A stretch of 42,370 nucleotides of DNA from Saprospiraceae bacterium. GTDB taxonomy: Bacteria; Bacteroidota; Bacteroidia; Chitinophagales; Saprospiraceae. Of the stretch, positions 11,910-23,141 are shown one piece after another. The translations under genes and the position numbers were made by a program. The DNA is taken from positions 1 through 42,370 of the forward strand of contig JAHDCG010000044.1 in assembly GCA_020629965.1 (NCBI GenBank), read 5' to 3'. Under the pieces are notes generated by a model. The model was not told the DNA's origin and made no database searches. It worked only from the letters and a program-made list of their open reading frames with translations. Position 1 is the stretch's first letter. Every line of letters begins with the position of its first letter.

Positions 11910-12563
11910 ATGAATACCGATATCGAACGCAACACCGAGCTTCTGCGCACATATTTTCCGAAGCTGAACGACCTGAAACTCATCGAAGAAATCGCCGCCT
12001 GCGCGCAGTTGTTTTCCTTCCCGGAGGGGCAGGTCATCATGAATTACGGCGACCACATTCGTATGGTACCTTTAGTCATCAGCGGGTCGATTAAAGTGAT
12101 GCGCCAAGACACGGACGGCAACGAACTCTTCCTCTACTACCTGCAAGGCGGTGATGCCTGCGCGACTTCGTTTACCTGCTGCATGACTGCCAAACAAAGC
12201 TACATGAAGACCATAGCGGAAAAAGATTCGGTCATCCTCGGCTTACCGATTAAAAAAACGGACGAATGGATGAGCGAGTACCGCGTGTGGAAAAACTTCG
12301 TGATGCAGGCCTACGACGCGCGGGTTTTGGAATTGGTGCGCACTATCGACAACATCGCCTTTATGAAGACCGACGAGCGATTGTACAAATATTTACAAAA
12401 AACGGCGCAGACTTCGCAGACCAATGTCATCGAGCATACGCATCAGCACATTGCCAACGATTTGCACGCTTCGCGCGAGGCGGTGTCGCGGCTGCTGAAA
12501 AAATTGGAGAAGAAAAATCTGATTAAATTGGGTAGAAATCGCATTGAAATTTTAGACCGGTAA
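11910..12563 (+). CDS. Crp/Fnr-family transcriptional regulator of the sulfur module
   Basis: 217 residues: a cyclic-nucleotide-binding-type beta-barrel (~20-125), a dimerisation helix and a Crp-type winged helix (~150-215). The recognition helix ASREAVSRLLKKLEKK contains R189, E190 and R194 in the same spacing as Arg180, Glu181 and Arg185 of E. coli CRP, which read TGTGA half-sites. A perfect TGTGA-N6-TCACA lies 93 bases downstream, in front of the YeeE gene. The effector pocket is not the CRP cAMP pocket. Four cysteines (C31, C84, C90, C91), three of them within DACATSFTCC, could sense redox or sulfane sulfur, but this is inference. The classical N-terminal FNR iron-sulfur cysteine cluster is absent. 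Confidence 0.88.
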   Translation: MNTDIERNTELLRTYFPKLNDLKLIEEIAACAQLFSFPEGQVIMNYGDHIRMVPLVISGSIKVMRQDTDGNELFLYYLQGGDACATSFTCCMTAKQSYMKTIAEKDSVILGLPIKKTDEWMSEYRVWKNFVMQAYDARVLELVRTIDNIAFMKTDERLYKYLQKTAQTSQTNVIEHTHQHIANDLHASREAVSRLLKKLEKKNLIKLGRNRIEILDR

Positions 12564-12656
12564 AGCGCACTATGTATATCCGCTCCTCTTTCGCACAGGT
12601 CAAATTATCTTACCTCGATCCGCCTTCCGAAAAAAAAATAACCTTTTTTTGGCTTT

Positions 12657-12672
12657 TGTGACATGTATCACA
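12657..12672. promoter_or_regulatory. Crp/Fnr-type operator, perfect TGTGA-N6-TCACA
   Basis: TGTGACATGTATCACA is a perfect 5+5 palindrome identical to the CRP consensus. Its centre (12664.5) is about 42-44 bases before the start predicted from the -7 element at 12694-12701, the spacing of a class II activator site. It replaces the -33 element, which is missing at this promoter. The likely ligand is the regulator encoded at 11910-12563. Confidence 0.8.
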
Positions 12673-12693
12673 GAGTGTGAAAAAACCGCCCCA

Positions 12694-12701
12694 TATCTTT
12701 G
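12694..12701 (+). promoter_or_regulatory. -7 element of the activator-dependent sulfur-module promoter
   Basis: TATCTTTG, a full match to TAnnTTTG. There is no TTTG at -33; the Crp/Fnr-type operator covers that region instead. The start is predicted near 12706-12709, giving a leader of about 250 bases to the YeeE ATG. Confidence 0.7.
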
Positions 12702-12800
12702 TTGTATAATCAGCGAATTTTCGTTGCTTTTATTCAAGAACTTCACACCCCGTCAATTATTGACCGGGTGACAACGATATTTATTTAGCCGATGTAACAG

Positions 12801-12841
12801 GGGACGGATGTACCGGTAAAAAAATTCGTCCCGCTTTTTTT
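12801..12841 (+). terminator. Leader terminator 1 of the sulfur module
   Basis: GGGACGGAT (12801-12809) pairs with ATTCGTCCC (12824-12832) with one G-U, then GC and seven T. Confidence 0.75.
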
Positions 12842-12900
12842 CGCAAACAAATAAACAAAAAATATACAGTCAAAAAATTCATAACAGTCGGGTGATTTGG

Positions 12901-12941
12901 GGCGAATACATTTTTACAATGTGATTCGCCTCTTTTTTTTT
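12901..12941 (+). terminator. Leader terminator 2 of the sulfur module
   Basis: GGCGAAT (12901-12907) pairs with ATTCGCC (12924-12930), extended by ACATT/AATGT with one bulged G, a 5-base loop, then TC and nine T. The U-tract ends 15 bases before the YeeE start codon, leaving no room for a separate promoter behind it. Confidence 0.8.
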
Positions 12942-12956
12942 GCAAAAATAATTGAT

Positions 12957-13538
12957 ATGATTGAATGGATAAGTCAGCCGTGGCACTGGGCGGTTTCGGG
13001 GGCGATGATTGCCTTGGTGATGTGGTTGCTGCTGTGGTTTGGCGGCGAGTTTGGCGTAAGTTCTACTTTGAAAACAATGTGTACCATCGGCGGGGCCGGC
13101 AAGCGGTATGAGTTTTTTAATTTTGATTGGAAAGCGCAAATTTGGAACTTAGTTTTTATCGGCGGCGCGGTCATCGGGGGCTTTCTCGGTGTGACGGTTT
13201 TCGGCAGTCCGGAGCCGGTACAAATTGCCGAAAGCACGCAGGAATATTTAAACTCGGTCGGCATAGACACCCCACAGACCTTAGCGGAGGGTCGGGGCTA
13301 TGTGCCGCAGGAAATTTTCGCCCTCGACAACATTTTTTCGGTCGTCAATCTCATCGTTTTAGTTGTCGGCGGGGTGCTGATTGGTTTCGGCACCCGTTGG
13401 GCGGGCGGCTGTACCTCGGGTCATGCGATTAGCGGTCTTTCAAATCTCCAACTGCCCTCCCTCATCGCGGTAGTCGGATTTTTTATCGGCGGCTTGGTTA
13501 TGGCTTGGGGTATTTTGCCGTTTTTGTTGACAATGTGA
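12957..13538 (+). CDS. YeeE/YedE-family transporter subunit (first half)
   Basis: 193 residues with about five membrane segments. The conserved motif GTRWAGGCTSGHAISGLSN carries the family cysteine, and a second cysteine lies in TMCTIGGAG. YeeE (TsuA)-type proteins take up thiosulfate by relaying it along conserved cysteines; in many bacteria the protein is split into two half-size polypeptides, as here with the gene at 13637. The ATG at 12957 lies 15 bases after a terminator-like U-tract. A TTG at 12897 in frame would run translation through the hairpin and is considered less likely. Regulation by the upstream Crp/Fnr protein is inferred from the operator. Confidence 0.88.
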   Translation: MIEWISQPWHWAVSGAMIALVMWLLLWFGGEFGVSSTLKTMCTIGGAGKRYEFFNFDWKAQIWNLVFIGGAVIGGFLGVTVFGSPEPVQIAESTQEYLNSVGIDTPQTLAEGRGYVPQEIFALDNIFSVVNLIVLVVGGVLIGFGTRWAGGCTSGHAISGLSNLQLPSLIAVVGFFIGGLVMAWGILPFLLTM

Positions 13539-13636
13539 AATGAGGAGAGAGGGGCAAGGTGAGAGAGGCGCACGACGGTTTTTCTCCCGACTTCTCTCTC
13601 TCCTCTCCCCTGACACCTCTCTCCTAAAACAAAATT

Positions 13637-14050
13637 ATGAAGTTCATCAAATACTTAGCCGTCGGCATCCTCTTCGGGATTGTCATGACCAAATCCGAGG
13701 CGGTCAGTTGGTTTCGGATACAGGAAATGTTTCGCTTCGAGAGTTTTCACATGTACGGCATCATCGGCACGGCGGTGGTGTTGGGGGCAATCGGCGTAGC
13801 GATTTTCAAAAAGTTCAATATCAAGTCCGTGGACGGCGGCGATTTGCGCTTACGGGATAAAACCTTCAGCGTGCCGCGCTACCTGTTCGGCGGTATCATT
13901 TTCGGCTTGGGTTGGGCGATGACGGGCGCCTGCCCGGGGCCGTTGTTTACGCTGCTCGGGCAAGGAGTTTGGAGTATTTTACTGGTCATCGTTTCTGCGG
14001 TGGCCGGTACTTATTTGTACGGTGCGGTGCGGGCTAAATTGCCGCATTAA
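13637..14050 (+). CDS. YeeE/YedE-family (DUF6691) transporter subunit (second half)
   Basis: 137 residues with four membrane segments. The motif GWAMTGACPGPLFTLLGQG is the signature of the second YeeE/YedE half and carries the third pathway cysteine. It is expected to pair with the preceding gene to form one sulfur-compound channel, like PmpA/PmpB of Serratia. The 98 bases between the genes are a C/T-rich low-complexity tract (CTCTCTC-type words). A start at ATG 13637 fits the first membrane segment (FIKYLAVGILFGIVMTKSE). Confidence 0.88.
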   Translation: MKFIKYLAVGILFGIVMTKSEAVSWFRIQEMFRFESFHMYGIIGTAVVLGAIGVAIFKKFNIKSVDGGDLRLRDKTFSVPRYLFGGIIFGLGWAMTGACPGPLFTLLGQGVWSILLVIVSAVAGTYLYGAVRAKLPH

Positions 14051-15819: not shown

Positions 15820-17133
15820 ATGCCCGAAAACAAAAAAATCGGTCTCCACACCTTATACCAAACCGACAAAACCAAAGCCGAAAAAATCCTCCTCGGCGCA
15901 TCCGCTAATCGGCGCGGTTTTCTCAAAAGCGGGGCGATTGCAGCGTTAGGAACACTTCTCGGCGCACCCGTCGTCTTCGGAAAAAACTACCCGTCGGGGC
16001 TGATACCGGCGGCTTGGGCAGACAGCGATTTGCCCTTTTCTTTGCCCGGTAAAAACGGCGGTTTGGTCATTCTCAACGACCGCCCGATAAACGCCGAAAC
16101 GCCGCCGCATCTTTTGGACGATAAAATTACGCCCGCCGATTTACTTTTCGTCAGAAATAACGGCATTCCGCCGGAGGCAGGCAGCATCGACCCGCAGACT
16201 TGGACGCTGACCGTCGAGGGCGAGTCCGCTGCCCGCAGCAAGACCTACACACTTGCCGATTTGAAAAGCAAATTCAAAAATTATACTTATCAACTGACTT
16301 TGGAATGCGGCGGCAACGGTCGCAAAGAGTTCAATCCGCCCGCCAAAGGCAATCAATGGACGACGGGCGCGGTGGGCTGCCCGACGTGGACGGGTGTAAG
16401 ATTGAAAGACGTACTGAACGATGTCGGCGTGAAAAATGACGCGGTTTACATCGGTTATTACGGAAAAGATACGCACCTCAGCGGCGATACGGCGAAGACC
16501 GTGATTTCGCGCGGCGTGCCGATGGTCAAAGCGATGCAGGACGAAAGTTTGCTTGCGTGGCAAATGAACGGCGCGGACATTCCCTTGCTCAACGGACATC
16601 CGCTGCGCTTGGTTTTCGGAGGTTGGCCGGCCTCTTGTTCGGGTAAATGGCTGCACAAAATTGTCATCAGAAATCGAGTCCACGACGGCTCGAAAATGAC
16701 GGGGCAATCTTACCGGGTGCCCTGCACACCCGTCGCGCCCGGCACCAAAGTCCCCGACGAGGAGATGTGCATCATCGAAACCATGCCGGTCAAATCGCTC
16801 ATCACTTTTCCCAAAACCGGGGCAACGATTAAACGCAGTCAAAAACTGCCGATACGCGGACATGCTTGGGCGGGCGATACGTCGATAAAAGCGGTAGATT
16901 ACTCCATAGATTTCGGTGCGACGTGGCAAAAATGTAACTTGGAAGCCGCCGCAAACCTCAATGCGTGGCAGCATTTCAGCGCACAAATCACCTTCCCGCA
17001 AAGCGGCTACTATGAGGTGTGGGCGCGAGCGACGGACGCCGCCGGCACGGCACAACCGATGCTGCTGCCCGGTTGGAATCCGCGCGGCTATCTCAACAAT
17101 GCCTGTCACCGCATCGCCGTCAAAGTTCAGTAA
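15820..17133 (+). CDS. Sulfite dehydrogenase, molybdopterin subunit (SorA-like)
   Basis: 437 residues of the sulfite oxidase family. A Tat signal NRRGFLKSG (30-38) precedes a hydrophobic stretch ending LIPAAWA (61-67). The molybdenum-ligand cysteine is C163 in TLECGGNGR, and the C-terminal Mo-co dimerisation domain follows (~300-437, DYSIDFGATWQKC, GYYEVWARATDAAGT). Oxidises sulfite to sulfate in the periplasm and passes electrons to a cytochrome c; the next gene, one base away, encodes such a subunit. Methionine sulfoxide reductase MsrP is a relative, but length, dimerisation domain and the cytochrome partner favour a sulfite dehydrogenase. Confidence 0.88.
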   Translation: MPENKKIGLHTLYQTDKTKAEKILLGASANRRGFLKSGAIAALGTLLGAPVVFGKNYPSGLIPAAWADSDLPFSLPGKNGGLVILNDRPINAETPPHLLDDKITPADLLFVRNNGIPPEAGSIDPQTWTLTVEGESAARSKTYTLADLKSKFKNYTYQLTLECGGNGRKEFNPPAKGNQWTTGAVGCPTWTGVRLKDVLNDVGVKNDAVYIGYYGKDTHLSGDTAKTVISRGVPMVKAMQDESLLAWQMNGADIPLLNGHPLRLVFGGWPASCSGKWLHKIVIRNRVHDGSKMTGQSYRVPCTPVAPGTKVPDEEMCIIETMPVKSLITFPKTGATIKRSQKLPIRGHAWAGDTSIKAVDYSIDFGATWQKCNLEAAANLNAWQHFSAQITFPQSGYYEVWARATDAAGTAQPMLLPGWNPRGYLNNACHRIAVKVQ

Positions 17134-22847: not shown

Positions 22848-23141
22848 TAGTTGGTGGTTGGTGGTTGGTGGGAGGTTTTCTGATTTTGCTCGGTGTTTTG
22901 GTGAAAATGATTCTATGAATTTTCTTGTAAAGATAGTTCGCTTTTTTCTTCCCCGGCACTTACGTGCCGGGCTGAAGTGATTCGTGCCGTTGGCACTTGG
23001 GGATTAGTGGTTAATAGTATCTTCCGGGAAAGATTTATCACCCTATTCATCCACAAAAGTAAAGCGAAAACCGTCCGTCAACCAACAACCACCAACCATC
23101 CGCGACTGAAGTCGGGATTTCGCTGTCGCTCAACCAACCAA
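22848..23141. repeat. Intergenic word repeats and REP-like palindromes between TonB receptor and kinase
   Basis: In the minus direction GTTG words follow the receptor stop (TTGGTTGGTTGAGCG, then GGTTGGTGGTTGTTGGTTG, 23077-23141), and CAAC words (CACCAACCACCAACCACC) precede the kinase start (22848-22876). Between them lie CCCGGCAC-TTAC-GTGCCGGG (22952-22971) followed by CTGAAG, and GTGCC-GTT-GGCAC (22984-22996). Confidence 0.75.
23054..23061 (-). promoter_or_regulatory. -7 element of the kinase gene
   Basis: TACTTTTG on the minus strand (full TAnnTTTG match) with GTTG 18 bases upstream as a partial -33. It predicts a leader of about 200 bases containing the REP-like palindromes. Confidence 0.45.

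Follow-up and report, generated by a model that had tools for sequence, protein, structure and literature searches.

In this Saprospiraceae genome, the leader of a yeeE-type transporter gene probably contains one copy of a base-pairing small RNA (sRNA) whose multicopy family, found in Saprospiraceae, appears not to have been described; the sRNA would repress translation, and read-through of the leader would give the yeeE mRNA. The features concerned are listed in Table 1, in coordinates of the window, i.e. the whole stretch of 42,370 nucleotides that was analysed. Transcription from the presumably Crp/Fnr-activated promoter is predicted to start near position 12706; where it stops at terminator 2, it would yield an RNA of about 236 nucleotides whose 3' part consists of a 16-nucleotide core and then the terminator hairpin. 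The core would pair with mRNAs across the start codon and the bases immediately before it, in its own genome with that of an ABC-transporter ATPase and in relatives with those of TonB-type receptors, MacB/FtsX permeases and secreted proteins, and by analogy with the FopS sRNAs this pairing would probably block translation initiation. Read-through of both terminators would produce the yeeE-DUF6691 mRNA, and terminator 1 probably acts as an additional control point for sRNA and mRNA alike. The family, the terminators, the promoter signals and the co-occurrence of the core with complementary target sites are read directly from the sequences; we infer the expression of the sRNA, the repression, the inducing signal and the fraction of read-through.

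Table 1. Features of the yeeE leader and of the adjoining genes in the window
Feature	Position	Strand	Remarks
Crp/Fnr-family regulator gene	11910..12563	+	Pfam HTH_Crp_2 and cNMP_binding
Crp/Fnr-type box TGTGACATGTATCACA	12657-12672	+	37 bp before TAnnTTTG in 12 of the 15 yeeE upstream regions with both elements, window included
-7 element TATCTTTG	12694-12701	+	Sole + strand TAnnTTTG in 12561-13000
5' leader hairpin	12746-12770	+	10 pairs, one C/C mismatch, -13.2 kcal/mol, z -3.7
Terminator 1	12801-12841	+	Stem 12801-12832, T7 at 12835-12841
Extended seed (TTCAT + 16-nt core)	12878-12898 (core 12883-12898)	+	Complement reads AAATCACCCGACTGTT-ATG-AA
Terminator 2, predicted sRNA 3' end	12899-12941	+	Stem 12899-12932, T9 at 12933-12941
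yeeE-type transporter gene (Sulf_transp)	12957..13538	+	Pfam PF04143
Second transporter gene (Sulf_transp / DUF6691)	13637..14050	+	Pfam

The promoter of the window looks like a conserved yeeE promoter, because its box and the 37-bp distance (start to start) from TGTGACATGTATCACA to TATCTTTG recur upstream of other yeeE genes. A Crp/Fnr-type box is present in 23 of 133 yeeE upstream regions, 15 of which also have TAnnTTTG, and the spacing is 37 bp in 12 of these 15 (the window, L060, L025, L081, L026, L063, L076, L084, L083, L433, L431 and L437); some of the 133 regions are one genome under two locus identifiers (e.g. L060 and L025), so that these are not counts of independent genomes. The distance from TAnnTTTG to the start codon is 263 nucleotides in the window, versus 28-162 nucleotides where this box and spacing recur at yeeE genes outside it. 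The sequence-only reading, which had placed an activator box upstream of a promoter and had seen no second TAnnTTTG promoter, was right on both points. On the opposite strand, a TATTTTTG box lies directly 3' of terminator 2 (window 12943-12950; L001 1884-1891), which could conceivably drive transcription antisense to the sRNA.

Folding and a scan for hairpins followed by T6 place the 10-pair hairpin and the two terminators of the sequence-only reading where it had put them, the scan of 12703-12957 giving exactly terminators 1 and 2, both of which are missed by a simple terminator scanner with a loop limit of 3-8 nucleotides. The stem of terminator 1 has 9 pairs and a 14-nucleotide loop (-12.1 kcal/mol, z -2.3), and that of terminator 2 has 14 pairs and one bulge (-15.3 kcal/mol, z -5.3). 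Among 200 dinucleotide shuffles of the leader, at least one terminator arose in 6 and two arose in none. Two terminators and no second TAnnTTTG promoter imply that yeeE needs read-through, and intrinsic terminators between promoter and gene are a feature shared with transcription attenuators and riboswitches. The leader could be a cis attenuator that senses sulfur or redox state and switches yeeE by one or both terminators with no function in trans, a reading that the fold of the full leader (z -2.5) also favours. We regard it as unlikely, since the leader is not kept at other yeeE genes (the core is found upstream of 1 of 133, that of the window), no Rfam family matches, and the last 60 nucleotides or so are kept at other, unrelated Saprospiraceae loci, as an sRNA module. 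Unlike attenuators and riboswitches, the window leader has no aptamer conserved in orthologous leaders and no structure kept across the 133 upstream regions; Rfam gave nothing at gathering score for the leader, as the sequence-only reading had supposed for riboswitches, and 12600-13000 gave sub-threshold matches only (E 0.94 or worse). That reading had also proposed a sulfur-responsive cis leader and had named beforehand, as an outcome that would refute it, a lack of conservation of the hairpins in orthologous yeeE leaders; they are not conserved, any terminator-like hairpin within 250 nucleotides being found in 13 of the 133 upstream regions, window included, and this proposal is not supported. 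In G001, of the same genus, a yeeE fragment stands behind a different gene and has a distinct leader, itself ending in a hairpin and T-run. Such hairpins with T-runs between upstream genes and yeeE, in G001 and 12 further upstream regions of the 133, speak for ordinary insulation, in which the terminators shield yeeE from upstream transcription and an unseen yeeE promoter lies behind them; this we hold to be quite improbable, as the conserved yeeE promoter precedes the terminators and the core in front of terminator 2 departs widely from chance.

The core, AACAGTCGGGTGATTT, comprises the 16 bases directly 5' of the terminator 2 stem and had been overlooked by the sequence-only reading. The passing suggestion in that reading of a small RNA made from the promoter agrees with the explanation preferred here. 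A DNA search of 60 relatives with the leader gave exact matches of 18-21 bases at 12878-12898 in several genomes, and the 21-mer 12878-12898 is exact in contig C119 of the same genome and in G001. Exact copies of the core itself are present in 53 of 199 Saprospiraceae genomes, and of its reversed control in none; copies were collected by exact match, which overstates the invariance of the core, and at L236 the core has a single mismatch. An intrinsic terminator follows directly at 67 of 76 distinct places (66 by script, L004 by eye), so that, as expected of a base-pairing sRNA, the predicted RNA would have its own 3' end, marked in the window by T9. These 67 copies occupy 52 genomes, with one copy in 38, two in 13 and three in one, that of the window. 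TAnnTTTG is found upstream, at -200 to -40, in 30 of the 67, versus 7.8 +/- 2.6 in shuffles (0 of 500 reach 30) and 10 on the other strand. A terminator follows none of the exact core matches in viral contigs (0 of 9); these were read as chance matches, and carriage of the family by phages was rejected. In the genome of the window, one exact core (L175, G000:C133:46022-46037) is followed by no direct terminator, and its complement leads into no long frame.

Terminator 1 is the least explained part of the leader, and it counts against the sRNA reading: it precedes the core and would cut it off, its product being a 136-nucleotide RNA without the core. No sign of a counterpart was found at other core copies, and the two others in the same genome have a promoter-like box 57 and 75 nucleotides before the core without a step like terminator 1. 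The idea that terminator 1 is a duplicate of terminator 2 was dropped, as 152 of 2000 shuffle pairs align as well or better. A further point against is that the predicted fold of the full leader pairs part of the core in the window (mean unpaired 0.44, compared with 0.61 for 12846-12941).

A model of the family, R2, was built on 36 of the 67 copies picked for similar terminators (alignment A1 holds 64 of the 67); it replaces R1, which was discarded for its misaligned terminators and faulty consensus structure. Across 36 type-A rows, 95.8% of the stem cells are paired and 9 double changes occur, each value being reached by 0 of 500 shuffles; 14 of 500 shuffles reach the number of stem pairs that show double changes. 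As a point against, a control slid by -3 has 11 double-change cells versus 9 in the true pairing, yet is paired in 43.7% of cells versus 95.8%. Below E 1e-11, R2 finds 17 genomes among the 248 of the order, all Saprospiraceae; its best matches outside the family Saprospiraceae are at 3.8e-6 (G065) and 5.2e-6 (G796). The window copy, at E 1.4e-5, scores no better than generic terminators outside Saprospiraceae, and its membership rests on the exact core, not on R2. Among 31 R2 loci read, four are family members, their core having 0-1 mismatch, and L258 is the sole other locus with three mismatches or fewer; this locus, in G768 outside Saprospiraceae, has a look-alike, AACAGCCGGGAGATAT, before a terminator (R2 E 5.7e-5). 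Spread beyond Saprospiraceae was rejected, the outside matches being at E 3.8e-6 or weaker and the loci read there lacking the core.

The 5' regions of type-A copies (33 copies) align poorly. Similar same-strand reading frames lie downstream of 23 type-A copies, and the one scanned (L155) encodes a sodium:solute symporter; of 22 copies with a downstream symporter-like motif by script, 4 have TAnnTTTG between terminator and gene. At L155, L199, L207 and similar loci, the gene downstream of the type-A copy is sodium:solute symporter-like, and in many cases no promoter box separates the two. A second sRNA type (L187, L188, L198 and L201) has a 5' hairpin, GAGTGA..TCACTC-like, before the core, and several loci of this type share an upstream gene on the opposite strand, which at L187 encodes an animal-type haem peroxidase. 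Rfam on 12 sRNA loci gave sub-threshold matches only, with nothing at gathering score or above noise. A recurring design may be discerned here, in which sRNAs with a shared anti-start-codon seed reside in the leaders of transporter genes (yeeE in the window, under a Crp/Fnr-type regulator, and sodium:solute symporters elsewhere) and couple uptake to repression of envelope and transporter functions; we put this forward tentatively, at somewhat less than an even chance. If it holds, the choice between termination and read-through would couple the uptake of one substrate to translational repression elsewhere.

The conserved seed is complementary to mRNA start regions, as expected of a base-pairing sRNA: the core complement, AAATCACCCGACTGTT, stands directly before ATG at several places, and the pattern AAATCACCCGA-N2-14-ATG has 283 matches in the 199 genomes versus 66 for the reversed pattern. 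With 36 matches set aside as reverse readings of sRNA copies, there are 2.62 complement sites before ATG per genome with the core (n=53; control 0.45) versus 0.74 per other genome (n=146; control 0.29; Fisher p 0.005), the reversed pattern being an imperfect control and genomes without the exact core possibly carrying variants. The 40 target loci were picked by eye among the matches listed and 20 of 32 proteins were scanned, so that the genes behind them are illustrative and not a count: they include genes for CarboxypepD and TonB-receptor Plug domain proteins, MacB/FtsX permeases, an ABC ATPase, LpxC, beta-lactamase-fold proteins and secreted proteins. Tandem complement sites, one exact and the other with a single change, precede the start codon at L171 and L178. 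The genome of the window has 11 matches to the target pattern, two of which are sRNAs read backwards, and the one in C286 alone lies clearly before a long frame without being inside another. The C89 site was discarded because it lies inside a frame, as were several others that precede short frames; a further match to the pattern is found in C232.

At the C286 site, AAATCGCCCGACTGT-ATG stands at a gene for an ABC ATPase (Pfam), and the predicted duplex of the window copy with this start region has -29.8 kcal/mol, versus -12.9 +/- 2.2 for shuffled start regions (0 of 500 reach it). The comparison of orthologs of this gene is the strongest target test. The best contiguous pairing with the core at -40 to +3 has a mean of 19.5 in the core genomes (n=22) and of 12.0 in those without the core (n=32; one-sided Mann-Whitney p 1.3e-4, 54 orthologs in all, kinship ignored), and shuffled seeds give 11.8 +/- 0.9, 0 of 300 reaching the observed value. 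The ortholog set is 56 of the 57 listed at >=67% identity, G327 being omitted because it lies close to the end of a contig. For L407 the test used a misplaced start codon, the true ATG being 12 nucleotides before the point used, and G334 bears the core through the target-like place L150 only, with no sRNA-like copy seen there. Two orthologs from core genomes outside the n=54 test (G362 and G425) score 24 and 31. With a cut-off of at least 21, set afterwards, strong pairing is seen in 14 of 24 core genomes and in 0 of 32 others; a strong site at this gene is missing in 10 of the 24.

The core might instead be a double-stranded DNA site of a protein that acts in either orientation, at terminators or at start codons, with no pairing of RNAs; both orientations of one sequence do occur, and the RNA pairing is predicted from sequence. 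This seems very improbable to us in view of the strict orientation of the core relative to terminators, of the position of the strong ABC-gene sites, 13 of 14 of which end -1 to +3 nucleotides from ATG, inside the transcript, and of the changes within these sites, which keep G-U pairing in 9 of 10 cases in the central six bases, though in 13 of 24 over ten bases and in sites selected with G-U allowed. Bacteroidota mRNAs generally have no Shine-Dalgarno sequences.

Around the leader, an inverted repeat with 23-nucleotide arms (13543-13625; -37.3 kcal/mol) lies between the yeeE and DUF6691 genes and might determine how much of each transporter protein is made relative to the other. A gene for a sulfite-oxidase-type molybdopterin enzyme (Oxidored_molyb, Mo-co_dimer; 15820-17133, + strand) lies 3' of the transporter genes and fits a neighbourhood of sulfur metabolism, and an Acido-Lenti-1 RNA (RF01687) is found at 22952-22997 (+ strand; 49 bits versus a gathering score of 37).

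The core sequence was not found in the literature searched, and the closest sRNAs found for Saprospiraceae and related Bacteroidota are FopS, GibS and Rfp18, in both cases with slight coverage of subscription papers and preprints; for Saprospiraceae and small RNA together, only work on lake communities was found. RhlS (PMC6786874) and Rli51 (PMC11394854) are likewise sRNAs from the 5' leader of a gene that act as attenuators and/or in trans; unlike the Saprospiraceae family, they belong to other phyla, and the accessible portions of these papers make no mention of a multicopy family with a shared seed. In the window, the single + strand TAnnTTTG before yeeE, at the box spacing of other yeeE promoters, may serve both the sRNA and the gene. 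Rfp18 of Flavobacterium psychrophilum is likewise a Bacteroidota sRNA with predicted secreted-protein targets that is kept across species, but, compared by description in the portion available, its pairing is predicted via the third stem-loop and it is conserved in the genus Flavobacterium (PMC9723704). FopS and GibS of Bacteroides thetaiotaomicron resemble the present family most in being multicopy paralogous sRNAs of Bacteroidota that pair at start codons and whose targets include SusC-type receptors (PMC11697453, PMC7366714); in Bacteroides, translation of susC-type mRNAs is blocked when FopS sRNAs bind them close to the start codon (PMC11697453), a repression shown there and inferred here. 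As far as the available parts of these sources describe, FopS/GibS RNAs are about 65-70 nucleotides long and carry the seed at their 5' end, in positions 1-21, whereas the Saprospiraceae core is on the 3' side, directly before the terminator, with promoter-like boxes, where present, tens to more than 100 nucleotides upstream. The Saprospiraceae family would work like FopS but cannot be filed there, being set apart by seed position. With a shared seed of 16 nucleotides, a clear 3' end, many copies and co-occurring target sites, post-transcriptional control becomes directly testable in Saprospiraceae, a large environmental group, and, if true, the family would join FopS among Bacteroidota sRNAs that act on envelope genes at their start regions.
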